46,071 nucleotides of DNA from Hydrogenophilales bacterium CG12_big_fil_rev_8_21_14_0_65_61_21. GTDB lineage: Bacteria > Pseudomonadota > Gammaproteobacteria > Burkholderiales > Thiobacillaceae. Made by a program: the position numbers and the translations under genes. Shown here one piece after another: positions 11,871-24,540 of this stretch. Below the pieces are notes generated by a model that had not been told where the DNA came from, made no database searches, and worked only from the letters and a program-made list of their open reading frames with translations. How positions within the stretch are numbered: position 1 is the first letter of the stretch; each line of letters opens with the position of its first letter. Where the stretch lies: NCBI GenBank assembly GCA_002782005.1, contig PFGT01000055.1, forward strand, positions 1-46,071. Direction: 5' to 3'.

Positions 11871-11904
11871 TTAAGCAGCAGATCGTATTAATGGGGTGAG
11901 TGTC

Positions 11905-13107
11905 ATGGATGCATTCAAGACAAGTTCAGATATGGTGTTCGTACTGCTTGGCGCCATTATGGTGCTGGCCATGCACGCTGGTTTTGCCTTCCTGGAACTG
12001 GGCACGGTGCGCCGGAAGAACCAGGTCAACGCCTTGGCCAAGATACTGAGCGATTTCAGCGTTTCGACGATTGCCTATTTCTTCATCGGTTATGGCATCG
12101 CCTACGGCGTTCATTTCATGAGCGGGGCCGATGTGCTGGCCCAGAAAAGCGGCTACGACCTGGCCAAATTTTTCTTCCTGCTGACCTTTGCAGCCGCTAT
12201 CCCGGCCATCGTTTCCGGCGGCATCGCCGAGCGCGCCCGGTTCTACCCGCAACTCATGGCGACCTTCGTCCTGGTGGGCTTCATTTATCCCTTCTTCGAG
12301 GGCATTGTCTGGAACGGTAATCTGGGTTTGCAGGATTGGTTGCAGACTACTTTTGGCGCAAAGTTTCACGACTTCGCCGGGTCGGTGGTGGTCCATGCCA
12401 TGGGTGGCTGGGTCGCCCTGCCGGCGGTCCTGTTGCTGGGCGCCCGGCGCGGTCGCTACCGTCACGACGGCATGGTTTCCGCGCATCCGCCTTCAAGTAT
12501 TCCCTTCCTGTCGCTCGGCGCCTGGATACTGACCATCGGCTGGTTCGGCTTTAACGTGATGTCGGCCCAGAGCGTAGCGGCCGCTTCTGGTCTGGTAGCG
12601 GTCAATTCGCTGATGGCCCTGGTGGGCGGTACCCTGGCCGCCTTGGCGGTTGGCAAAAACGACCCCGGCTTCATCCATAACGGCCCTTTGGCAGGTCTGG
12701 TGGCGGTCTGCGCCGGGTCAGACCTGATGCACCCGATCGGCGCCCTGGCTACCGGCGCGGTAGCCGGGGGGATGTTCGTCTGGATGTTTACCGTCACCCA
12801 AAACAAATGGAAGATCGACGATGTGCTAGGCGTTTGGCCGCTACACGGCCTATGCGGCGCCTGGGGCGGCATCGCTGCCGGCATCTTCGGTAGCCGGGCG
12901 CTGGGTGGTGTGGGCGGCATCAACGTATGGTCGCAACTGATCGGCACGTTGTCGGGGATTGCCGTCGCCCTGGCCGGCGGCGCACTCGTTTACGGCATCT
13001 TGAGGTATAGCGTTGGCATTCGTCTCGAACCCGAACAGGAGTTCGAAGGCGCCGATCTATCGATCCATAAGATTTCGGCCTCGCCGGAGTACGAAACCAG
13101 TTGGTGA
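11905..13107 (+). CDS. amt: Ammonium transporter (Amt family)
   Basis: Amt proteins are trimeric channels for ammonium uptake under nitrogen limitation. The 400-residue protein has about eleven membrane helices, starting with MVFVLLGAIMVLAMHAGFAFLE. Pore-lining histidines are visible in VVVHAMGGWVALP and WPLHGLCGAWGG, the twin-His pattern of the family. ATG 11905 is preferred because GGGGTG lies six bases upstream. GTG at 11896 would add three residues. No glnK is adjacent, which is unusual because glnK-amtB pairs are common. The gene converges on the FisR-like regulator with only two bases between them. Confidence 0.96.
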   Translation: MDAFKTSSDMVFVLLGAIMVLAMHAGFAFLELGTVRRKNQVNALAKILSDFSVSTIAYFFIGYGIAYGVHFMSGADVLAQKSGYDLAKFFFLLTFAAAIPAIVSGGIAERARFYPQLMATFVLVGFIYPFFEGIVWNGNLGLQDWLQTTFGAKFHDFAGSVVVHAMGGWVALPAVLLLGARRGRYRHDGMVSAHPPSSIPFLSLGAWILTIGWFGFNVMSAQSVAAASGLVAVNSLMALVGGTLAALAVGKNDPGFIHNGPLAGLVAVCAGSDLMHPIGALATGAVAGGMFVWMFTVTQNKWKIDDVLGVWPLHGLCGAWGGIAAGIFGSRALGGVGGINVWSQLIGTLSGIAVALAGGALVYGILRYSVGIRLEPEQEFEGADLSIHKISASPEYETSW

Positions 13108-14833: not shown

Positions 14834-16102
14834 ATGGCACATATCGTTATTCTCGGCGCCGGCCTCGGCGGCATGACCATGGCCTATGAAATGAAAGAAC
14901 ACGCCCGCGCTCAGGACAAGGTCACGGTCATTTCCAACCATAGCTTTTTCCAGTTCACCCCCTCCAACCCCTGGGTGGCCGTGAACTGGCGGACCCGCGA
15001 CGACATCACCATTCCGGTCGCGCCCTATCTGGAAAAGAAGGGCATCGGGTTCATCCCGGTCGGCGCCCAGCGGCTCCACCCGGACAAGAACCAGGTCGAA
15101 CTGGAAGACGGCAAAACCATCGATTACGACTATCTGATTATCGCCACCGGCCCCAAGCTGGCCTTCGATGAGGTCGAGGGCCTCGGCCCCGAAGGCCATA
15201 CCCAGTCGGTTTGCCATGTGGATCACGCCGTTCAGGCCGGCAAGGCCTGGGAGCATTTCATCAAGGACCCGGGGCCGGTGGTGGTCGGTGCGGTACAGGG
15301 CGCTTCCTGTTATGGCCCGGCATACGAGTTTGCCTTCATCATGGATACCGATCTACGCCGGCGCAAGATCCGCGACAAGGTGCCCATGACCTACGTTACC
15401 GCAGAACCGTATCCTGGCCACTTGGGTCTGGGCGGGGTCGGCGATTCGCAAGGTATGCTCGAATCCGCGCTGCGTCACCGCCATATCAAGTGGATTTGCA
15501 ACGCCAAGGTGACCAAGGTCGAGGCCGGCAAGATGTTTGTCTCCGAGCACAACGCCAAGGGCGAGGTCATCAAGGAGCACGAACTGCCCTTCAAGCATTC
15601 CATGATGTTGCCGGCCTTTAAGGGCATCGATGCGGTATACGGGATCGAAGGCCTGACCAACCCGCGCGGCTTCATCACCATCGACCCATACCAGCGCAAC
15701 GCCAAATTCAAGAATGTATTCAGCGTCGGCGTCTGCGTGGCGATCCCGCCGGTGGAAGCGACCCCGGTGCCAACCGGTGCGCCCAAGACTGGCTACATGA
15801 TCGAGACCATGGTGACGGCGACCGCGCATAACATCCGGGCGCTGCTCGATGGCAAGGAGCCGGACCAGAAGGCCACCTGGAATGCCCTTTGCCTGGCCGA
15901 CTTCGGCGATACCGGCGCGGCCTTCGTCGCCCTACCGCAGATCCCGCCGCGCAATGTCAACTGGTTCAAGGAAGGCAAGTGGGTACACCTGGCCAAGATT
16001 GCGTTCGAGAAGTATTTCATTCGCAAGATGAAGAGCGGCAATACCGAGCCGCTCTATGAGAAATACATGCTGGGCGTGCTGGGCATCAAAAAACTGAAAT
16101 AG
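14834..16102 (+). CDS. sqr: Sulfide:quinone oxidoreductase, type I
   Basis: SQR is a membrane-attached flavoprotein that oxidises sulfide to sulfane sulfur and passes electrons to quinone. The 422 residues open with the FAD motif VILGAGLGGM. They contain the three cysteines of type I enzymes at C127 (SVCHVDHA), C159 (GASCYGPAYE) and C353 (NALCLADFGD), plus the quinone-side motif PVPTGAPKTGYMIE and the C-terminal WVHLAKIAFEKYFIRKMK that anchors the enzyme. From memory the sequence resembles Acidithiobacillus ferrooxidans SQR through its whole length. GGAG lies nine bases before the ATG. It is expected to be induced through the sigma-54 promoter and divergent FisR-like activator. No persulfide dioxygenase gene is adjacent. 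Confidence 0.93.
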   Translation: MAHIVILGAGLGGMTMAYEMKEHARAQDKVTVISNHSFFQFTPSNPWVAVNWRTRDDITIPVAPYLEKKGIGFIPVGAQRLHPDKNQVELEDGKTIDYDYLIIATGPKLAFDEVEGLGPEGHTQSVCHVDHAVQAGKAWEHFIKDPGPVVVGAVQGASCYGPAYEFAFIMDTDLRRRKIRDKVPMTYVTAEPYPGHLGLGGVGDSQGMLESALRHRHIKWICNAKVTKVEAGKMFVSEHNAKGEVIKEHELPFKHSMMLPAFKGIDAVYGIEGLTNPRGFITIDPYQRNAKFKNVFSVGVCVAIPPVEATPVPTGAPKTGYMIETMVTATAHNIRALLDGKEPDQKATWNALCLADFGDTGAAFVALPQIPPRNVNWFKEGKWVHLAKIAFEKYFIRKMKSGNTEPLYEKYMLGVLGIKKLK

Positions 16103-16792
16103 TCAGACCGCGCGATCGGACCTGTTTCCCGGCCCTGGGTTGGGAAACAGGACTCGATGCAATAACCAGGCGGCGAAATAGACCGCGAAGAACGAAAACA
16201 CCACATCGCTGAGGAAGTGTCCGCCTTGGGCCATGCGCATCAGGCCGAGGGCGCCGCCGATGACGGTGGCGGCGATGAACCAGCGCCGTGGATGGTTGGC
16301 TAGAAACGCCAGCGCCAGCAAACTGAAACCCACCGACGAGTCGCCGCACACGAATGAGCAGTTGGCGTTGCACTGATCGCTGGGTATCCAGGCCGGGGTG
16401 AATTGGGCTTGGCCGCCGAAGGGCTCGATCTGCGCCGGTCGGGCGCGGCCCCAGTGGTCCTTGAATACCGTGTTGACCAATAGGCCCGGCCCCAGCACCA
16501 GAACCAGCGCAATGTAGGCGGCCTTCCTGCGCCAGTCCCTGGTTTCGAGAGCGCTATTCACTAGCCGGCCAATCAGCCAGATCAGCCAGCCTGACCCAAA
16601 GGCCAGCCAGCCCAGATGGTTGTGGACGAAATCAGTCAATGGGTAGTTATCCAGAACAAAGCCATGCGCAGGCGCGTAAAACCAGCCACTGGCAATCAAG
16701 TCCAGACGGGGAAAGGTTAGGAACAATGCGGTGCAGGCCAGCGCGGTCAGGGCCATGAAACGGGGCGAAGGCAACTGTTTATCCGGACTCAT
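16103..16792 (-). CDS. PAP2-family membrane phosphatase with altered motif 2
   Basis: A 229-residue integral membrane protein of the PAP2 (lipid phosphatase) superfamily with about five to six helices. Motif 1 KDHWGRARP and motif 3 RMAQGGHFLSD fit the family. Motif 2, normally PSGH, reads CGDSSVGF, so the histidine is replaced by aspartate. A change of this kind occurs in some lipid-phosphatase relatives, but activity is uncertain. It is the last gene of a six-gene minus-strand operon, overlaps the preceding GT39 gene by four bases (ATGA), and its stop abuts the sqr stop. Possible substrates are lipid A phosphate or polyprenyl diphosphate. Confidence 0.82.
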   Translation of the reverse strand: MSPDKQLPSPRFMALTALACTALFLTFPRLDLIASGWFYAPAHGFVLDNYPLTDFVHNHLGWLAFGSGWLIWLIGRLVNSALETRDWRRKAAYIALVLVLGPGLLVNTVFKDHWGRARPAQIEPFGGQAQFTPAWIPSDQCNANCSFVCGDSSVGFSLLALAFLANHPRRWFIAATVIGGALGLMRMAQGGHFLSDVVFSFFAVYFAAWLLHRVLFPNPGPGNRSDRAV

Positions 16793-18342
16793 TGTTGCCG
16801 ATAATCCCGTACCAGCCAGACCCGGTATAACGGGGCGAAATCCGGATACAGTTGCAGATAGATGGCCGGCTGCGGGCTGGCTTCGGCGAACCTCTCCTTT
16901 ACCTGCTGGTCAGTCAAATGCTGACTGACCAGCAGGAATGACCCCTTGGGCTGCTTGCGGATATCGGCGGTCAGGGCGTAGTGGTTGTCGATCCGGTTGC
17001 CGAGGTTCAGATATAGCCCGCCCTTGCTATAGGGGCGGCCGTAGTAGCGGATCAGCGCATAGAGCATCCGGTCGTCGCTCAAAAAGCGCGTGTCGGGGCG
17101 CTCCCTAAGACGTTTGCCGACCTCGATGCCCAAGGCGCGAAAGCCCGTCACCCGGCCGTATGGATCGGTCTTGCGGGTCAACTGGATATCGAGCAGGTGG
17201 GTGATGTCGTGGAAGTTGTAAACCACTACGCCCAAGGCCAGGTTGACGGTCAGCGCGGCAATCAGCCAGGCGCGTCGGCCTTTCATCAACAGGCCGGCGG
17301 CGACGAATGCCGCGCCGGCGACATAGGCGAAGGCCGCCCAGTTGGCGAAGGCCCGCGACAGCAGACTCAGGACCAGGAAGGCAGTCAGTGGCGCCAGGGT
17401 AAAGACGGCCAACAAACGCAGACGGTCATCACCGAACCAGCCGCGCGGCCGAACGGCCAGGACCAGCAAGCTAGCGGCGGTAATCGGCCCGAAGACCAGA
17501 AATTGGCCCACAAAAAACTCCAACAGGGCGTCCGGATGAAACAGCGCCCGGTTCAACTCGGAAATCTCCGCTGTGTGCTGAAAGCTGACGAATTGGTGCT
17601 CGGCATTCCACAGGATGTTGGGTATCAATATCAGCAGGGCCAGGGCCGCTGCGGCATACGGTTTCGGGTCTTTGAATAGGCGCCAACGTGGTCGGCTCAG
17701 CAAGACATAAACGACCAGGCCCAGGCCGTAGAATGCCATGCTGTATTTCGACAGCAGACCGAGGCCGAGCGCCACGCCCAGCAGCAGCCAGTCGCGCCAG
17801 CGGCCAGTCTCCAGCGCCGCGACCGTGAAATATAGGGACAAAGCCCAGAACAGCAAGAGCGGGGCATCCGTGGTCATCAACCAGGCGCCCAGACTGGTCA
17901 TGGGCAAGGTGGCGAACAGCAGTGCGGCCCAGAAGGCCATGGCCTCGGCTGGCGGCGTGGACTGGAACAATTGACGCACCAGACGGCTGATGCCGCCCAA
18001 TCGTTCAGGCGGCTGGTTTGCCGGCTCGGCCTGAACCTGGAACAAGCGACGCACCAGCAGGAAGATCACCCAGGCGGTTAACGGATAAAGCAGCAGTGCG
18101 GCCGAGCGCACCCCGATCTCGCGGTCGCCGAACAGATGCGTACCCAGGTAGATCAACCAAGCCACCATGGGCGGCTTGGAGTAATAGCCCCAGTCCGGCT
18201 GGAGCGACCAGGTCCAGTATTGGGCCTCATCGCCATAAAGCTCGATGCCGGCATGTTGGCCGGCCAGCAGATGCCAGATCGTCAGCCCGGCCAGCCAGGC
18301 CAGTAGCCAGAGTGTGTAGCGGGACGGTTTACGATGTGCCAT
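16789..18342 (-). CDS. GT39/ArnT-like membrane glycosyltransferase (copy 1)
   Basis: A polytopic membrane enzyme of 517 residues related to ArnT and protein O-mannosyltransferases, which use polyprenyl-phosphate sugars in the periplasm. The first periplasmic loop has the catalytic acidic pair in ELYGDEAQYWTW, followed by YYSKPPMVAWLIYL, a hallmark of this GT-C group. The ATG at 18342 is chosen because it begins MAHRKPSRY just before the first helix. Longer forms would extend 101 bases into the upstream PAP2 gene; this one overlaps it by 14 bases. The acceptor (lipid A, other glycolipid or protein) cannot be told. Confidence 0.88.
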   Translation of the reverse strand: MAHRKPSRYTLWLLAWLAGLTIWHLLAGQHAGIELYGDEAQYWTWSLQPDWGYYSKPPMVAWLIYLGTHLFGDREIGVRSAALLLYPLTAWVIFLLVRRLFQVQAEPANQPPERLGGISRLVRQLFQSTPPAEAMAFWAALLFATLPMTSLGAWLMTTDAPLLLFWALSLYFTVAALETGRWRDWLLLGVALGLGLLSKYSMAFYGLGLVVYVLLSRPRWRLFKDPKPYAAAALALLILIPNILWNAEHQFVSFQHTAEISELNRALFHPDALLEFFVGQFLVFGPITAASLLVLAVRPRGWFGDDRLRLLAVFTLAPLTAFLVLSLLSRAFANWAAFAYVAGAAFVAAGLLMKGRRAWLIAALTVNLALGVVVYNFHDITHLLDIQLTRKTDPYGRVTGFRALGIEVGKRLRERPDTRFLSDDRMLYALIRYYGRPYSKGGLYLNLGNRIDNHYALTADIRKQPKGSFLLVSQHLTDQQVKERFAEASPQPAIYLQLYPDFAPLYRVWLVRDYRQQ

Positions 18343-19132
18343 GGCGAGCGCGAGTTGGTGGGTGTTGGGCAAAGGACCAGCCCGGCAATAAATGGTAGAC
18401 CAGCACGCCCAGGGCAAGCGCCTGTTCAAATGGCCGGGCCAGCGGATAGCCGGTGTGATGGAAAAAGAACAGATAAAGGGCGCAGGCGACCAACAGGGCG
18501 CGTAGCGCCTCGCGGACGGCGGCGCGCCCCGGATTGCCGAAGCGCCGAGCCAGATAGAGGCCGATCAGCGCCGAGGCCCAGCCGCATAAGATGCCGCCGG
18601 CCACATCCAGCGGCCAGTGGGCGCCGACCGCGACGCGGGCCAGGCCGACCAGCAGGGCCAGTACCATGACGCCGAGCGCGGCCACGCGGTTAGCCAGTCC
18701 GGCCGTCAGTACCGAGGCCAGGACGAAGGTGGCGGTGGTGTGGCCGGATGGGAATGCGCCGGCGGTCAGATAGGGGCCGATGACATGCACCGCATCGCCC
18801 AGCACGGCATAGGGCCGGGCCATGTCGAAGGCATCCTTCAGAACGTGGGAAATGAGTGTGGCCGGCAGACTGGCCAGTAACGCCGCAAGTACCAGATCGG
18901 GCCGCCGGCGCAGGAACGGCAGAATCAGGCACAGCGCCACCAGGGAATCGCCCAGCACGGTCAGACAGGACCAGAAGGTATCCGGCAGGTGGGCCGCCAG
19001 GCCATTGAGCGTCAGAAACAGGGCGCGATTGTCGGCCGGGTCGGCCAGCCGCCATAACACAGCCAGGGCCAGGATCGGCGGCAGCCAGAAATAGGGGTGG
19101 CGGCTGAATGCGGGCAGGAACGATCGGCTCAT
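18329..19132 (-). CDS. PAP2-family membrane phosphatase with canonical motifs
   Basis: A 267-residue multi-pass membrane protein. All three PAP2 motifs are intact: KDAFDMARP, FPSGHTTA and ARVAVGAHWPLDV. Such enzymes remove phosphate from lipid phosphates such as undecaprenyl diphosphate, phosphatidate or lipid A, acting at the outer face of the inner membrane. It lies between two GT39 genes, two bases after the upstream one and overlapping the downstream one by 14 bases. This copy is likely active, in contrast to the last gene of the operon. Confidence 0.9.
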   Translation of the reverse strand: MSRSFLPAFSRHPYFWLPPILALAVLWRLADPADNRALFLTLNGLAAHLPDTFWSCLTVLGDSLVALCLILPFLRRRPDLVLAALLASLPATLISHVLKDAFDMARPYAVLGDAVHVIGPYLTAGAFPSGHTTATFVLASVLTAGLANRVAALGVMVLALLVGLARVAVGAHWPLDVAGGILCGWASALIGLYLARRFGNPGRAAVREALRALLVACALYLFFFHHTGYPLARPFEQALALGVLVYHLLPGWSFAQHPPTRARHGTS

Positions 19133-19134
19133 GT

Positions 19135-20676
19135 TCAGGGCATCCTGACCAGGATGTAGCTACGCTCGCTGTAGACCACCGTTGCGCCAGGCAGGCGCGG
19201 CAGATCGCTGTGCCGGGTCAGGACCAGGTCGCCCGGTCTGGGTAGGCGTTTTTCCACTTGGCGATTGGCATAGGTCTGCAAGCTGGGCGTGTTGACGCCG
19301 AATAACACCAATGGACCGGGCAAGGTCTGGGCCAATCGTCCGGCATTGCGGATGGGCGCTTGCTGAATTTGGCTGACAACAGGAATCAGGAACACGGTCA
19401 TGGCGATACCGGCCAACAGGCCGGAGAAGCGCAACGCCGCCGCCAGGCTGATATGCCGCGTGCCGAGCAGGATCAGGCTGATCGCCAGGGCGCCGCCGCA
19501 GCAAAGCCAATAGGCCGGACCGAAGGCATCCGGCAAGCTGGCGAGCAGTAGTTGGTCATCGCCCTTGAGACCACCGACCGCCCGTTGCGCCAGGAAGGGC
19601 AGGGCGAGCAGCAGGGCGAAGGTCAGCGGCGCGGGGCCAAGCACCAACCAGCGCCGTACCGGGGCCTCGACCATGGCGGCTAGGACGATCACCAGTCCGC
19701 CATAACCGTAATAGACATAGTGCGGCAGCTTGGTGCCGGAAAACGAAAACAGGGTGAGGGTCAGCAAGAACCAGAGCAGGCCATAGCGCAGCAACGGGTT
19801 GCGCCAGATCGCGTGCAAGCGGGTCAGGGCGGCGAGCAGCAGGCCGGTATGCGGCAGCAGCGACAGCAGAACGACCGGCAGGTAATAGAAAAAATTGCCG
19901 CGATGGCCTTCCATGGCGGTGTCGAAGCGTCCCAGGTTGTGGGTGAGAAAAAAGCCGGTCAGAAAACCGGGGCCTTCGCGCCAGGTCAGCATCATGAACC
20001 AGGGCGCGGCGACCAGTAAAAACAGTGCCAGCGGGCCGGGGGCGAAGGCGAAGCGCAGGAACAAACGCCCATCTCGCTGGCTCAGACACCAGAGTAAGAC
20101 GGCACCAGCCGGGATGACCACGGCAATCGGGCCCTTGGTTAGAAAGCCCAGGGCCATGGCCAGCCAGGCCACATAAAGCCAACGCCGGCCATCGTTTTGC
20201 AACCATAGCCAGGCGGCATAGCCGGCTGAGGCCAGCCACAGGTTGAGCAGGGCGTCGGCGGTGGCGGCGCGGGTAATGACGGTCAGACCGGCGGCGGTGG
20301 CGACAATGAGCGCGGCGGTCAGACCGACCCGGCGGTGGCTAACCCGGGTGACAAACAGATAGGTGACCAGTATCCACAAGCTGGAAGACAGCGCCGATGG
20401 CAGCCGCCAGGCGAACTCGCTGCGCCCGAACAGGGTGACGGACGCCGCCTGGAGCCAATAGATCAGGATAGGTTTGTCATAACGCGGCTCGCCCAGCAGG
20501 TGGCTGGACAGGAAATCGCCGCGCAGGAACATCTCGGTGGTCGACGCGGTGAAGGCGCCCTCGTCCAGGTCGAATAGCGGCGCGGCGCCGAGGGCAACGA
20601 ATGGGAACAGGACCAGGACCGCCAGGATCAGCCACTCGTCCCAGTATTCCGGCCAGAGAGAGGCCCGGGTGTTCAT
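19135..20676 (-). CDS. GT39/ArnT-like membrane glycosyltransferase (copy 2)
   Basis: A 513-residue GT-C membrane glycosyltransferase. The N-terminal periplasmic loop has the acidic motif LFDLDEGAFTAST, then LLGEPRYDKPILIYWLQA, closely fitting ArnT, which transfers aminoarabinose from undecaprenyl phosphate to lipid A. About eleven to twelve membrane helices are followed by a small periplasmic C-terminal domain. It begins two bases after the GT2 gene, which could make its polyprenyl-phosphate sugar donor. The sugar is unknown; no aminoarabinose synthesis genes are in the window. Confidence 0.9.
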   Translation of the reverse strand: MNTRASLWPEYWDEWLILAVLVLFPFVALGAAPLFDLDEGAFTASTTEMFLRGDFLSSHLLGEPRYDKPILIYWLQAASVTLFGRSEFAWRLPSALSSSLWILVTYLFVTRVSHRRVGLTAALIVATAAGLTVITRAATADALLNLWLASAGYAAWLWLQNDGRRWLYVAWLAMALGFLTKGPIAVVIPAGAVLLWCLSQRDGRLFLRFAFAPGPLALFLLVAAPWFMMLTWREGPGFLTGFFLTHNLGRFDTAMEGHRGNFFYYLPVVLLSLLPHTGLLLAALTRLHAIWRNPLLRYGLLWFLLTLTLFSFSGTKLPHYVYYGYGGLVIVLAAMVEAPVRRWLVLGPAPLTFALLLALPFLAQRAVGGLKGDDQLLLASLPDAFGPAYWLCCGGALAISLILLGTRHISLAAALRFSGLLAGIAMTVFLIPVVSQIQQAPIRNAGRLAQTLPGPLVLFGVNTPSLQTYANRQVEKRLPRPGDLVLTRHSDLPRLPGATVVYSERSYILVRMP

Positions 20677-20678
20677 GT

Positions 20679-21644
20679 TTATTGGCTGGGTGGCTCTCGC
20701 AGCAAGTATTGTGCCTTGCCGCCCGGCTCATGCCAGATGCGGGTGAGCATCTCACCCAGGATGCCCATGCCGATGAAGTTGGCGCCCATCAGGGTCAGCA
20801 TCACGCCCATCAATAGCAGCGGTCGGCCGCCGATGTCGGCCCCGGCGAACAGCTTGAGCCCGGCCAGGTAGAGCAGTATCAAAAAGCCGGGGAAAAACAT
20901 CGCCGCGCCGGCGCCGCCGAAGGCATGCATGGGGCGATGCAGGAAGCGCAGCATGAACTTCACCCACATCAGGTCGAGCAGGACGCGGATGGTGCGGTCG
21001 ATGCCGTATTTCGACACGCCCTTGGTGCGTGGAAAGTGGTTGACCTCCGCTTCCATTACCTTGGCTCCGTATTCATGCGCCAGGGCCGGGATGAAACGGT
21101 GCAACTCGCCATAAATCTTGACGTACCGGATCGCCTCGCGCCGATAGAGTTTGAGCGAACAGCCATAGTCGTGCAGACGCACGCCGGTCACCTTGGAGAT
21201 CAGCCGGTTGGCGATCATGGAAGGTATCTTGCGGGAAAACGCCTTGTCCTGTCGGTGTCTGCGCCAGCCGGAAATGATGTCGATCTCCGGGTGCTCGTCG
21301 AGCATCTTTAACAGGCGGGGAATATCGGCCGGATCGTTCTGCATGTCGCCGTCGATAGTCACCAGTATCTCACCCCGCGCGGCATCGAAGCCAGCCTGCA
21401 TGGCGGTCGACTGGCCATAGTTGCGACGCAGGAAAAACGGCCGCAACCAAGGGCGGCTGGTCGCCAGTTTGGCCAATAGTTTGTCGGAACCATCGCGCGA
21501 GCCGTCATCGACACAAACCAGCTCCCAACTGTCTGGCTGCCCGGACATCACCGATTCAACCCGATTCACCAGGTCGGGCAGGTTGTCGTATTCGTTGTAG
21601 ATGGGGGCGAGAATGGAAACGCGGACCGACTCGGGCATGGTCAT
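20679..21644 (-). CDS. GT2 polyprenyl-phosphate glycosyltransferase (ArnC/GtrB-like)
   Basis: A 321-residue enzyme with a cytosolic GT-A domain. The start SILAPIYNEYDNL, the DDGSRDGS loop, the metal-binding TIDGDMQNDP (DxD-type) and the C-terminal pair of membrane helices are those of polyprenyl-phosphate sugar synthases such as ArnC, GtrB and DPM1. It should attach a sugar from a nucleotide donor to undecaprenyl phosphate. An ATG two codons in (21638) is an alternative start. The downstream ArnT-like genes are the natural users of the product. Confidence 0.9.
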   Translation of the reverse strand: MTMPESVRVSILAPIYNEYDNLPDLVNRVESVMSGQPDSWELVCVDDGSRDGSDKLLAKLATSRPWLRPFFLRRNYGQSTAMQAGFDAARGEILVTIDGDMQNDPADIPRLLKMLDEHPEIDIISGWRRHRQDKAFSRKIPSMIANRLISKVTGVRLHDYGCSLKLYRREAIRYVKIYGELHRFIPALAHEYGAKVMEAEVNHFPRTKGVSKYGIDRTIRVLLDLMWVKFMLRFLHRPMHAFGGAGAAMFFPGFLILLYLAGLKLFAGADIGGRPLLLMGVMLTLMGANFIGMGILGEMLTRIWHEPGGKAQYLLREPPSQ

Positions 21645-21664
21645 GGGCTGACAAATCGAATTCG

Positions 21665-22378
21665 CTAGTTTACCGGCAAATCGGGGTCCGCGCCCGTCTC
21701 ACCCAGTTCCCGCTCCAACGCCTCATCGTAATGCCGGCCATGGCGCAGGCGACGAAACAGATACACACCTAGAACGCCGGACCCAATAAACAGCGCGATG
21801 GCCGTCCCGATACGCCAGGCAGGATCGACATTCACGCCGCTGCCGACCAAGGCAAAAATTGCGGTTTGCGGCAAAAATCCTAGCGCCGAGCCGAGCAGAA
21901 ATGGGGCTGCCGGCACACTGGAAACGCCGCCGGCCAAGCTGGTTGCGACATTGCTGCCGACCGGCAGCAGGCGGATCAGCAAGGTCATGGTGAACGGATA
22001 ATCGCGCACGAAATTATCAATCTTGGCGACCCGGCCGGATAAACGTTTGGCCACCAATGATCGGCCAGTAAACCGGGCATAGAAAAATGTTGCAGCGCAG
22101 CCTAGTTCGGTGGCGATCAGACCCAGCCAGGTGCCATACAGAAACCCGAAGGCATAACCAGCCATGAAGGCGATGACCTGTCGTGGCAGGCCGATGGCCG
22201 TGAATAGCATACCGATGGCGAGAAACAATAGCTCGCCAGAGACCCCTTTGCCGCGTACCTCGCGGTCGATCCAGCCCTGATTCAGCAGGTCGCCCAGATG
22301 AGTCTGGTTAATCAGAAAGCCTAGCGCCGCCATGGAAAGCAGAACAGCCAGCCCGCGCAGGATGATTTTTGGGTTCAT
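21665..22378 (-). CDS. VTT/DedA-like membrane protein (TVP38 family)
   Basis: A 237-residue integral membrane protein of the VTT (SNARE-associated/DedA) superfamily. Conserved parts are visible: AFMAGYAFGFLYGTWLG, the central GRSLVAKRL, and RLLPVGSNVATSLAGG with its re-entrant-loop arginine and glycines, followed by the LPQTAIFALVGSG segment. Members act as lipid scramblases, and some bacterial DedA proteins recycle undecaprenyl phosphate. The ATG at 22378 is used because a longer form would run back through the tRNA-Ser gene. It is the first gene of the glycosyltransferase/PAP2 operon, 20 bases before the GT2 gene. Confidence 0.87.
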   Translation of the reverse strand: MNPKIILRGLAVLLSMAALGFLINQTHLGDLLNQGWIDREVRGKGVSGELLFLAIGMLFTAIGLPRQVIAFMAGYAFGFLYGTWLGLIATELGCAATFFYARFTGRSLVAKRLSGRVAKIDNFVRDYPFTMTLLIRLLPVGSNVATSLAGGVSSVPAAPFLLGSALGFLPQTAIFALVGSGVNVDPAWRIGTAIALFIGSGVLGVYLFRRLRHGRHYDEALERELGETGADPDLPVN

Positions 22379-22448
22379 GAAGGTGAAGTTAGTGGGGCGG
22401 ATGGAAAATCGAGAATCTGCGGCAGGCATTCTAGCCCACCCATCGCCC

Positions 22449-22477
22449 TTGCCCGAACGCTGGTTAGCAGGTATTCT
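22449..22477 (+). promoter_or_regulatory. Probable sigma-70 promoter of tRNA-Ser
   Basis: TTGCCC, 17 bases, TATTCT lies so that transcription would begin near 22484, a few bases before the tRNA. The bases after the -10 are GC-rich (GCGCCCC), the discriminator type of stringently controlled stable-RNA promoters. Each hexamer has four of six consensus bases, so position and discriminator carry most of the weight. Confidence 0.5.
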
Positions 22478-22489
22478 TGCGCCCCTTCC

Positions 22490-22580
22490 GGAGAGGTGGA
22501 TGAGCGGTTTAAGTCGCACGCCTGGAAAGCGTGTTTAGGATAATATCCTAACGCGGGTTCGAATCCCGCCCTCTCCGCCA
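22490..22580 (+). tRNA. tRNA-Ser (anticodon GGA)
   Basis: The 91-base gene folds as a class II tRNA. The acceptor GGAGAGG pairs with CCTCTCC, the D-arm starts with TGGATGAGCGG, the anticodon stem CACGC/GCGTG encloses CTGGAAA with GGA at 22524-22526, a long variable arm follows (TTAGGATAATATCCTAA), and the T-arm is GCGGGTTCGAATCCCGC. CCA is encoded. It reads UCC and UCU serine codons. It stands alone, divergent from the VTT gene, and no attachment-site duplication is visible in the window. Confidence 0.97.
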
Positions 22581-22620
22581 GACTCGTGCCTGAATTCCTG
22601 ACCGCCGTTCTGCTCCCGCT

Positions 22621-22875
22621 CTACTTCAAGTTCTTCGAAGAAAACAGCAGCGCCTTGTCGCCGGCAAAACTGACTGCCACTGACTGTTTGTCATCGCCCC
22701 AGTTGCAACTTCTCAAGCCCATCAGGTCATCGCATTTGTCTGGGGCGCCGATCAGCTTGACGACCTCGTCGTAGGGCATGCCAACGGTAATCTTGCTGTA
22801 GTTCTGGACGGTCAGCTTGCTGCAACCGAGCAACGTTGTCAGCAGGATGATCCCGATCAGTGTCTGAATTTTCAT
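22621..22875 (-). CDS. Small SmpA/OmlA-like lipoprotein
   Basis: An 84-residue predicted lipoprotein. The signal peptide MKIQTLIGIILLTTLLGC ends in the lipobox LLGC, so the mature protein would start at Cys18. The rest (KITVGMPYDEVVKLIGAPDKC) matches the short BamE/SmpA-like fold and DUF3862, where a helix pair packs on a three-stranded sheet. Further cysteines at about 48 and 57 (DKC, RSCNW) could form a disulfide in the periplasm. It is monocistronic; 69 bases separate it from the toxin gene upstream. The function is unknown. Confidence 0.82.
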   Translation of the reverse strand: MKIQTLIGIILLTTLLGCSKLTVQNYSKITVGMPYDEVVKLIGAPDKCDDLMGLRSCNWGDDKQSVAVSFAGDKALLFSSKNLK

Positions 22876-22944: not shown

Positions 22945-23241
22945 CTATTCTTGTGCATACCCGCCTTCCCGCTGATGTCGAATTGTCTGAACGATTGCAG
23001 TGTCGTTCGCTACGTCGAAATCGTAGAGCGCCAAGTAGCCGGCCCTGCCACGCGCAATGACCAGTTCACGTAAACCCGCTTCCGCCTTGCGCCCGATAAG
23101 TGGGTGTTCTTTGAGGATCGATAAGCCGCGTAGCAGGGTGGGTATGGTTTCCCGTGCAGTGTCGGCATCGTCGTCTTGAAGAAAATCTGTCAGCCGCTCC
23201 ATATCCAGCAGCGCGCGCGGTGCTATAACCAGTCGCGTCAT
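22945..23241 (-). CDS. ParE/RelE-family toxin
   Basis: A 98-residue protein of the type II toxin ParE/RelE superfamily. The N-terminal two-helix hairpin (APRALLDMERLTDFLQ) is followed by IGRKAEAGLRELVIARGRAGYLALYDF and the final strand TAIVQTIRHQREGGY, the typical beta-sheet core with its conserved arginines. ParE toxins inhibit gyrase and RelE toxins cleave ribosome-bound mRNA; which applies is not clear, though the RHQRE ending is ParE-like. It begins five bases after the antitoxin stop, giving the usual antitoxin-first order. Confidence 0.88.
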   Translation of the reverse strand: MTRLVIAPRALLDMERLTDFLQDDDADTARETIPTLLRGLSILKEHPLIGRKAEAGLRELVIARGRAGYLALYDFDVANDTAIVQTIRHQREGGYAQE

Positions 23242-23246
23242 GCGGT

Positions 23247-23525
23247 TTACAACTGGGTGGGCGAGGGGCGTTTGATCTGTTTTCCGGCTAACCGGGCCTG
23301 GATGTAGCTGAATACTTCATCAGCATCATAGATCAGTCCGTATTGGGCGACCTCTTCTCTGGCCAGAAGTGCCTGGTCAACAAATTGGCGGCGCCTTTCC
23401 ACCAGCTCGATTTGCGCTTGCAGCGATTCGAGCATGAAGGCATGGGGAGTCTTTCCGGCGGCTGCGGCGGCGTTGGCGATACGGGATTTGAGTGCATCCG
23501 GTAGTTTTATTGTGGTGGTAGATAT
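23247..23525 (-). CDS. Ribbon-helix-helix antitoxin with apparent ATA start
   Basis: The 92-residue product (STTTIKLPDALKSRIANAAA...) is a CopG/RHH-type antitoxin: a DNA-binding strand and two helices, then a C-terminal tail that would bind the ParE-like toxin. Homologues of this type start MSTTTIKLPD. Here the codon in that position is ATA, exactly seven bases after a strong Shine-Dalgarno (AAAAGGAG), and no ATG, GTG or TTG is nearby in frame. The next upstream ATG (23747) would add 74 unrelated residues and overlap the start of purU. The start may be a rare ATA initiation, a mutated ATG that lowers antitoxin output, or a sequence error. Confidence 0.7.
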   Translation of the reverse strand: MSTTTIKLPDALKSRIANAAAAAGKTPHAFMLESLQAQIELVERRRQFVDQALLAREEVAQYGLIYDADEVFSYIQARLAGKQIKRPSPTQL

Positions 23526-23685
23526 TTCGATGCTCCTTTTAAGTTGAGTGTTACCAAGGTAGCACTGACATCGGCCTTGGGCAATGCACAGCCTTTGGCG
23601 GCCAGTGAAAATGTGAGGGTACGGTCCGGGGGCGTGGCCCGATGACGTAAAATGCAGCCATTCGATCCCGCCGATTTGATAAAAA

Positions 23686-24540
23686 ATGCGCAATACCGCT
23701 TGTCTGCTGGTGTCCTGCCCCGACCGCAAGGGGCTGGTTGCCGCCATCGCCGATTTTCTCTATGGCCACAATGCCAACATACTGCACGCCGATCAGCATC
23801 AGGATAAAGTGGCTGGGCTATTCCTGATGCGGGTGGAATGGGACCTGGATGGTTTCGAACTTGACCTGGACAAGTTCGACGAGGCCTTCGCGCCCATCGC
23901 CGATCAGTTCCTGATGACCTGGCGGCTTGCCCTGTCTAGCGTCAAGCCGCGCCTGGCGATTTTTGTGTCCAAGTTTGACCACTGTCTGGCCGATCTGCTT
24001 TACCGCCATCATGCTGGCGAGTTGTTTTGCGACATCCCGCTGATCGTCAGCAACCACCCGGATAACCTCTGGTTGGCCGAGGCCTACAAGATTCCCTTCG
24101 TGAACCTCAGTGTGACCAAGGACAACAAGGCGGAGGCGGAACAACAGCAATTGGCCCTGCTGGCGGACCATCGCATCGATTTCATTGTTCTGGCGCGTTA
24201 CATGCAGGTGCTGTCGCCGGAATTCATCCGGCAGTGGGACAACCGGGTGATTAACATCCACCATTCCTTCCTGCCCGCGTTCCACGGCGCCAAGCCCTAT
24301 CAGCGGGCCTTCGAGCGAGGCGTGAAGCTGATCGGCGCGACCAGTCATTACGTTACCGAGGTACTCGACGACGGTCCGATCATCGAGCAGGACGTGATCC
24401 GTATCAGCCACCGTGACGACCAGGAAAACTTGATACGGAAAGGGGCCGACCTGGAAAAAGTGGTGCTGTCACGCGCCGTGAAGTGGCACATCGACAACCG
24501 GATATTGGTCTACGGCAACAAGACCGTGGTGTTCGATTAG
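23686..24540 (+). CDS. purU: Formyltetrahydrofolate deformylase
   Basis: PurU hydrolyses 10-formyl-THF to formate and THF, balancing one-carbon pools. The 284 residues comprise an N-terminal ACT domain (CLLVSCPDRKGLVAAIADFL) and a formyltransferase-type domain. The catalytic region shows INIHHSFLPAFHGAKPY and the aspartate-containing TEVLDDGPIIEQD. The length is standard. It is divergent from the RHH antitoxin, with 160 bases between, and converges on the nitroreductase gene across two dRS3-like hairpins. Confidence 0.97.
   Translation: MRNTACLLVSCPDRKGLVAAIADFLYGHNANILHADQHQDKVAGLFLMRVEWDLDGFELDLDKFDEAFAPIADQFLMTWRLALSSVKPRLAIFVSKFDHCLADLLYRHHAGELFCDIPLIVSNHPDNLWLAEAYKIPFVNLSVTKDNKAEAEQQQLALLADHRIDFIVLARYMQVLSPEFIRQWDNRVINIHHSFLPAFHGAKPYQRAFERGVKLIGATSHYVTEVLDDGPIIEQDVIRISHRDDQENLIRKGADLEKVVLSRAVKWHIDNRILVYGNKTVVFD

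Follow-up and report, generated by a model that had tools for sequence, protein, structure and literature searches.

The window analysed here is a 46,071-nucleotide contig (PFGT01000055.1) of Hydrogenophilales bacterium CG12_big_fil_rev_8_21_14_0_65_61_21, and it carries on its minus strand, at 16103-22378, an operon of six membrane-protein genes in the order VTT, GT2, GT39a, PAP2a, GT39b, PAP2b. This operon is read as a two-site lipid A remodelling system, in which both phosphates would be removed and sugars put in their place; we give this reading a probability of roughly 0.6. The six adjoining genes had been picked out in an earlier note on this sequence and were confirmed by open reading frames (ORFs) and Pfam: from VTT onward they are separated by gaps of 20, 2 and 2 bases and then overlap by 14 and 4, and all six proteins score above the curated Pfam cut-offs. 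The source assembly comprises 2.27 Mb in 126 contigs and is 99.5% complete. The genes are listed in the order of transcription.

21665-22378, minus strand: VTT-domain membrane protein of the 'PRQ' subfamily, 237 amino acids (aa); Pfam VTT_dom (PF09335), 64 bits.
20679-21644, minus strand: GT2, putative ArnC-like polyprenyl-phosphate sugar synthase, 321 aa; Pfam Glycos_transf_2, 103 bits.
19135-20676, minus strand: GT39a, ArnT-like glycosyltransferase, partner of PAP2a, 513 aa; Pfam PMT_2, 72 bits.
18329-19132, minus strand: PAP2a, LpxE-like phosphatase, 267 aa; Pfam PAP2, 71 bits.
16789-18342, minus strand: GT39b, ArnT-fold glycosyltransferase, partner of PAP2b, 517 aa from the ATG at 18342, the start used here (a longer ORF is possible from an upstream TTG); Pfam PMT_2, 124 bits.
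16103-16792, minus strand: PAP2b, LpxF-like and, by sequence, a putative lipid A 4'-phosphatase, 229 aa; Pfam PAP2, 64 bits.

In the proposed pathway, GT2 would load polyprenyl phosphate with sugar on the cytoplasmic side, and the charged lipid would be flipped outward, a step for which the operon offers VTT as its sole candidate. In the periplasm, PAP2a would take off the 1-phosphate of lipid A and PAP2b the 4'-phosphate, and GT39a and GT39b would each put sugar on one of the two positions, freeing polyprenyl phosphate; the 1-position is proposed for GT39a and the 4'-position for GT39b. An LpxE-like and an LpxF-like protein, each with its own ArnT-fold transferase, fit such a replacement of the 1- and 4'-phosphates by sugar. 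Passages of PMC6581854 describe galacturonic acid (GalA) instead of phosphate at positions 1 and 4' in the lipid A of Aquifex pyrophilus, and passages of PMC7663294 describe two GalA in that of Oligotropha carboxidovorans, with homologues of rgtE, lpxE and rgtF at consecutive locus tags. Since a smaller GT2-PAP2-GT39 set is thus in print for O. carboxidovorans in the latter source, the earlier note's remark that no operon of such composition had been described has to be softened, the composition being not wholly undescribed.

A role for GT2 as polyprenyl-phosphate sugar synthase, as supposed in the earlier note, is likely because the protein is ArnC-like; its best solved match is ArnC (9bhc, E 2.4e-56), and the next type is 5eke (sll0501, E 9.2e-31). 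The two GT39s had been called ArnT-like, which held for GT39a by sequence (ArnT 5ezm, E 1.2e-21) and for GT39b by fold: no PDB sequence match was found for GT39b at E ≤ 0.1, and its structural model (predicted local distance difference test, pLDDT, 89; predicted template modelling score, pTM, 0.90) has ArnT as best structural match (Z 27.3, Foldseek E 2.7e-8). Plasmid matches to GT39b are all from Rhizobium (22/22 records). Nothing in the source genome matched the decarboxylase half of ArnA (K-12 ArnA aligns only within its formyltransferase half, over residues 7-328 and, weakly, 64-176), so 4-amino-4-deoxy-L-arabinose (Ara4N) is unlikely to be the sugar. Two nucleoside diphosphate-sugar dehydrogenases of the genome score above cut-off, one of them Ugd-like by eye, and the transferred sugar may, by analogy with Rhizobium and Aquifex, be a uronic acid such as GalA.

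PAP2b aligned with the NCBIfam LpxF model (NF045633) over model positions 17-217 of 217 (E 1.7e-48, 165 bits) and is 41% identical to Francisella philomiragia LpxF. Since it falls below the curated cut-off of 400 bits, which the F. philomiragia protein passes with 410, it is named 'LpxF-like' and not LpxF. Its catalytic motifs are present (KDHWGRARP, CSFVCGDSS and RMAQGGHFLSD), and the variant second motif parallels CSFVCGDAS of F. philomiragia LpxF. Decay of PAP2b, suggested by Asp for the PSGH His in the window, L035 and L036, was rejected because F. philomiragia LpxF has the same Asp. Among 104 domain rows, some of them the second PAP2 domain of a fused protein, the residue is H in 75 and D or E in 29; Asp or Glu was seen in the LpxF-like proteins of L075, L112, L113, L115, L121, L134 and others. 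PAP2a has the K-x6-RP / PSGH / R-x5-H-x3-D motif with its residues intact. Its best solved match is Aquifex LpxE (6ebu, E 1.3e-15 over aa 30-193), followed by PgpB (5.6e-6), and its top NCBIfam model is not a lipid A 1-phosphatase; to call it LpxE-like is a reading and not proof. Aquifex LpxE itself is described in passages of PMC6581854 as multifunctional and remote from other LpxEs. Two PAP2 genes were found in the source genome, both in the operon.

The arrangement was followed through the family by searching 100 genomes with GT39a. Counting that of the window, and leaving aside an edge fragment of 31 residues in G188, 39 genomes encode it at no less than 43% identity, and all 39 neighbourhoods were read. 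A search for the same six-gene order had been set in the earlier note as a test of the linkage, and the full order is kept in 12 of the 39 loci, so the linkage is not a matter of chance. Both GT39s are in view at 32 loci; at the other seven the sequence breaks off too soon or does not include GT39b. PAP2 genes come and go mostly together: of the 32, 23 have both and eight have neither, and L201 has an intact PAP2a with a PAP2b remnant (L201:3400-3620) that keeps both ends and lacks the catalytic middle, through either a real deletion or an assembly fault. GT39a is followed by PAP2a in 24/24 loci having both GT39s and PAP2a, and GT39b by PAP2b in 23/23 of those with both PAP2s, counting L193, whose PAP2a was found in the GT39b frame. 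Even in L195, rearranged to GT39b-PAP2b-GT2-GT39a-PAP2a, each pair is intact around GT2. The two GT39-PAP2 pairs therefore behave as units, and two lipid A sites, given in the earlier note as an example of what the doubled pair might serve, are the best reading of this.

Two observations concern open frames in these loci. In L193 (8469-10949) PAP2a and GT39b share one frame of 826 codons, which may be a fusion or reflect a missing stop. A fusion of GT39b with PAP2b in G088 and G043, suggested by open-frame lengths, was rejected, as the two genes occupy different frames.

Where GT39a and GT39b adjoin each other and PAP2a is missing, their matches are just 29-53 bases apart (L172, L174, L181, L183, L188), so the absence is not an effect of assembly gaps. 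On a tree built for 28 loci (L201 left out), four changes of PAP2 state are needed, at least three of them forced by well-supported branches, and each change affects both PAP2 genes, though these are not adjacent. The PAP2-free operons retain both GT39s, and GT2 is kept in 7/7 where its position is in view (seven of the eight in all). They would suit an alternative in which the GT39s put sugar onto the lipid A phosphates in the manner of ArnT and the PAP2s, where present, tune the number of phosphates that remain. ArnC and ArnT, the closest structures, act on phosphates in the Arn route, and on the Alteromonas and Salinimonas plasmids read, a related GT2-VTT-GT39 trio has genes for a phosphoethanolamine transferase and a diacylglycerol kinase as neighbours. 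We nevertheless hold decoration of the phosphates to be improbable: with phosphatases for both ends, the operon would destroy the acceptor, and the PAP2 pair is kept in 23/32 loci, each GT39 with its own PAP2. Nor does the lack of an LpxE or LpxF homologue prove that dephosphorylation is lacking, as illustrated by Caulobacter, which has no recognisable lpxF in a passage of PMC7663294.

Beyond the family, a scan with the PAP2b alignment of one genome per species returned at least 579 relatives, of which the best 80 were kept. The nearest named relative among the matches listed is a Hydrogenophilus metagenome-assembled genome (MAG), with PAP2b 87% identical. Among the best 80, the LpxF-like gene has a GT39 no more than 600 bases away in 38 and no more than 5 kb away in 45, and in 19 there is a strong ArnC-like GT2 at a distance of up to 6 kb; where at least 1.5 kb was available on both sides, 32 of 62 loci have an adjacent GT39 (25 on the same strand, 7 divergent). 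Because the neighbour profiles were built partly from these loci, the counts are of homologues and not of orthologues. Several further families of the order have a reduced set of GT39b-PAP2b with GT2 (L037, L038, L042, L043), and GT39a-PAP2a-GT39b-PAP2b also occurs in an alphaproteobacterial MAG (L102). Of the best 80 LpxF-like ORFs 16 are long, and 15 of these have a second PAP2 domain behind the first, the 16th being cut by a contig end; the one second domain checked is closest, among solved structures, to LpxE (E 1.1e-5). An LptF/LptG-type permease gene (called by Pfam in L070 and by similarity to L070 in the others) stands directly upstream of GT39b-PAP2b at two loci, L070 and L087, and directly upstream of PAP2b at L111 (3/80), and slightly more than 2 kb off in L075 and L134.

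The two-PAP2 ORFs are those of L064, L065, L067, L072, L073, L076, L079, L084, L090, L093, L094, L099, L100, L122 and L123, several of which adjoin a divergent GT39. In one genus of the order (L044, L045, L047, L048) GT2 and GT39 domains share a single ORF of about 870 aa.

GT39 enzymes use many acceptors, and this width would allow the acceptor to be other than lipid A (lipopolysaccharide (LPS) core, O-antigen, protein or glycolipid), with the PAP2s recycling undecaprenyl diphosphate (Und-PP) or other lipid phosphates; that PAP2a scores with the Und-PP phosphatases SepP and BcrC in NCBIfam is in line with this. GT39 reactions with a sugar on undecaprenyl phosphate (Und-P), however, free Und-P and not Und-PP, and BacA is encoded elsewhere in the source genome, so that Und-PP recycling need not depend on the operon's PAP2s. 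PAP2b, moreover, is LpxF-like, and some related modules have LptF/G-type or phosphoethanolamine transferase genes next to them, which hints at LPS. Such an acceptor is accordingly rated as very improbable, and Und-PP recycling as the sole role of the PAP2s is not preferred, BacA being present and some operons having no PAP2s. Lipid A is retained as the probable acceptor.

Several findings weigh against removal and replacement of both phosphates. The strongest, directed at an obligatory removal step, are the 8 of 32 loci that retain both GT39s without an operon PAP2; the operon phosphatases are not obligatory. The earlier note's suggestion that PAP2 enzymes dephosphorylate the acceptor or carrier is supported in so far as the two are LpxE-like and LpxF-like. 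A single stray PAP2, not of LpxF-like type, was found in each of three PAP2-free genomes (G199, G158, G181) and none in the other five of the eight, six of the eight assemblies being 58-84% complete. With the PAP2b profile the strays, together with one of G165, score 22-25 bits versus 221-296 for operon copies, a range that leaves out the remnant in L201 and the second part of the copy that is split in L197. Every NCBIfam match of the operon proteins falls below its curated cut-off, and for PAP2a undecaprenyl-diphosphatase models rank first (SepP 49 bits, BcrC-type 42), themselves far below cut-off; LpxE also acts on Und-PP, according to a passage of PMC6581854. GT39 is absent within 600 bases in 42 of the best 80 LpxF-like loci and within 5 kb in 35, and the two LpxF-like plasmid genes read, from Labrenzia and Tistrella among 31 records, have no annotated GT39 within about 5 kb. 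Plasmid matches to GT39a are mostly from Pantoea (93/160) and Cupriavidus (16/160) and not rhizobial. Finally, the likeness to the RgtD, RgtE and RgtF route is one of gene content.

The link of VTT to GT2 and GT39 is the newest part of the finding. An orthologue of VTT was found in 36 of 38 chosen family genomes, beside GT2 and/or GT39 in 25 of the 36 (G208 among them judged by coordinates alone) and alone in 11. Four arrangements occur in the family: VTT-GT2-GT39a, VTT-GT2-GT39b, GT39b beside VTT, and GT2-VTT-GT39 with a divergent GT39. Across 300 genomes of the order the subfamily stands clearly apart, with 14 matches at 260 bits or more and the next at 77.5; 12 of these 14 loci are linked to GT2 and GT39, compared with 0 of the 16 weaker VTT loci returned. 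The phylum sample of 398 genomes gave 21 loci above 95 bits for reading (one more strong copy, in G738, had no returned locus and is left out); GT2 lies beside VTT in 12, ten of them with GT39 visible, versus 0 of 8 weaker loci. With the samples joined, two loci being common to both, the linkage holds for 23 of 33 subfamily loci and for 0 of 24 other VTT loci, as read over flanks of at most 1.5 kb per side, beyond which distant linkage would escape. All 33 subfamily loci have P-R-Q (in one case P-R-H) in the first conserved segment, which is found in none of the 24 other VTTs and not in YdjX or YdjZ, and the full signature of the window's VTT (PRQ / RLLPVGSN / PQ) is common to the 32 others.

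In genus g96 (L185, L186, L189, L240, L241; assemblies of 1.2-1.7 Mb) GT39b adjoins VTT, and in L185, L186 and L189 the pair and GT39a are on opposite strands; all five genomes of this genus that were searched, 72-91% complete, yielded no PAP2. In L251 (G043) and L255 (G161) the VTT orthologue adjoins an ORF that looks, by eye, similar to the ammonium-transporter-like one at 11896-13107 of the window; a glycosyltransferase gene is not visible there.

A separate GT39-GT2-GtrA cluster lies on another contig of the source genome, and by comparison with it VTT takes the place of GtrA in the operon. On two plasmids, of Alteromonas macleodii (L310:5254-10545) and Salinimonas iocasae (L311:5254-10547), the order is GT2-VTT-GT39-phosphoethanolamine lipid A transferase-diacylglycerol kinase, a neighbourhood that ties the trio to lipid A on those plasmids; divergent two-component regulator genes stand upstream of these Alteromonadaceae trios in the PLSDB gene table, these being the two plasmids read among 22 matching records. 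In the short flanks read, the other trios showed neither a phosphoethanolamine transferase nor a diacylglycerol kinase as neighbour. A search of open-licence papers met no description of a GT2-VTT-GT39 module, either among the papers listed or in passages of PMC11127046, PMC12826051, PMC12893004 and PMC10127716. A VTT model of low confidence (mean pLDDT 72, six sequences) gave no PDB match at E ≤ 0.001. Gene context makes VTT a candidate for moving polyprenyl-phosphate sugar outward.

The earlier note had instead assigned to VTT the return of Und-P to the inner leaflet, a proposal that has lost ground and that we now hold to be rather unlikely. GT39 reactions free Und-P, which must go back. 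In passages of PMC6849406, PMC7835334 and PMC12893004 two DedA proteins, DbcA and PA4029, assist the addition of Ara4N, and the second of them is reported to be an Und-P flippase. Among four E. coli DedA proteins, however, the operon VTT is nearest to YdjX and YdjZ (57 and 56 bits; E 6e-14) and not to YqjA (19 bits), and it scores 16 bits against the UptA model, whose cut-off is 250, so that it does not group with COG0586/UptA-type proteins. The DedA proteins tied to Und-P return are the UptA/YqjA group in passages of PMC10127716 and PMC12826051, and the former judges the COG0398 group, to which YdjX and YdjZ belong and which is described as lacking the expected residues, unlikely to flip Und-P; the residues of the PRQ subfamily also differ from those described for COG0398, so this argument is not strict. 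The gene context, for its part, points to the slot of an Und-P-sugar flippase, the one filled elsewhere by GtrA or ArnEF. Outward movement of the charged lipid can be extended to a wider proposal, which we put forward tentatively and at somewhat less than even odds: the PRQ subfamily would be a further kind of polyprenyl-phosphate-sugar flippase besides GtrA and the SMR-like ArnEF, serving lipid A modification by GT2 and GT39. In it the subfamily-specific arginine of the first segment and the arginine of the second segment, shared with other VTTs, would bind the lipid phosphate, and in relatives of Hydrogenophilus this core would be joined to two GT39-phosphatase pairs that swap both phosphates for sugar.

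Lipid A phosphates are docking points for polymyxins and TLR4. If the reading is true, the operon predicts phosphate-poor lipid A in these betaproteobacteria; a literature search of titles and abstracts of open-licence papers turned up no lipid A structure for Hydrogenophilus.

The operon is bordered on both sides, and no sigma-70-like promoter came up when 22300-22700 was scanned for patterns. The features around it are these.

14834-16102, convergent with the operon: oxidoreductase gene, directly abutting its downstream end.
22490-22580, plus strand: tRNA-Ser(gga), found by ARAGORN, divergent, the upstream border of the operon.
22621-22875, minus strand: small ORF with, by eye, a lipoprotein-like signal (LLGCSK).
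22945-23241, minus strand: ParE-type toxin gene beyond the tRNA; its upstream neighbour, an ORF at 23247-23747 without a Pfam match, could be an antitoxin.

Of known systems, the Rgt/Lpx route for GalA (Rhizobium, Mesorhizobium, Oligotropha, Aquifex) shares with the operon a GT2 donor synthase, two GT39-type transferases and two lipid A phosphatases, and two GT39s, a GT2 and LpxE-like and LpxF-like phosphatases were indeed found together here. The two-site chemistry is known piecewise from LpxE, LpxF and RgtD/E/F; the operon differs in bringing both sites together, in its added VTT gene and in its hosts, relatives of Hydrogenophilus. With the Arn (L-Ara4N) pathway of ArnC, ArnEF and ArnT it has in common an ArnC-like GT2 and ArnT-fold GT39s; unlike that pathway, it has no ArnE/F and has added phosphatases, and the ArnA decarboxylase half is unmatched in the genome. 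The DedA flippases of Und-P (UptA, YqjA, DbcA and PA4029) belong to the same superfamily (PF09335) as the operon VTT, which in contrast to them is YdjX/YdjZ-like with its own PRQ signature. Three-component glycosylation by gtrA-gtrB-gtr likewise combines a GT2, a small membrane protein and a GT-C enzyme, but in the operon VTT occupies the GtrA position and PAP2 genes are added.

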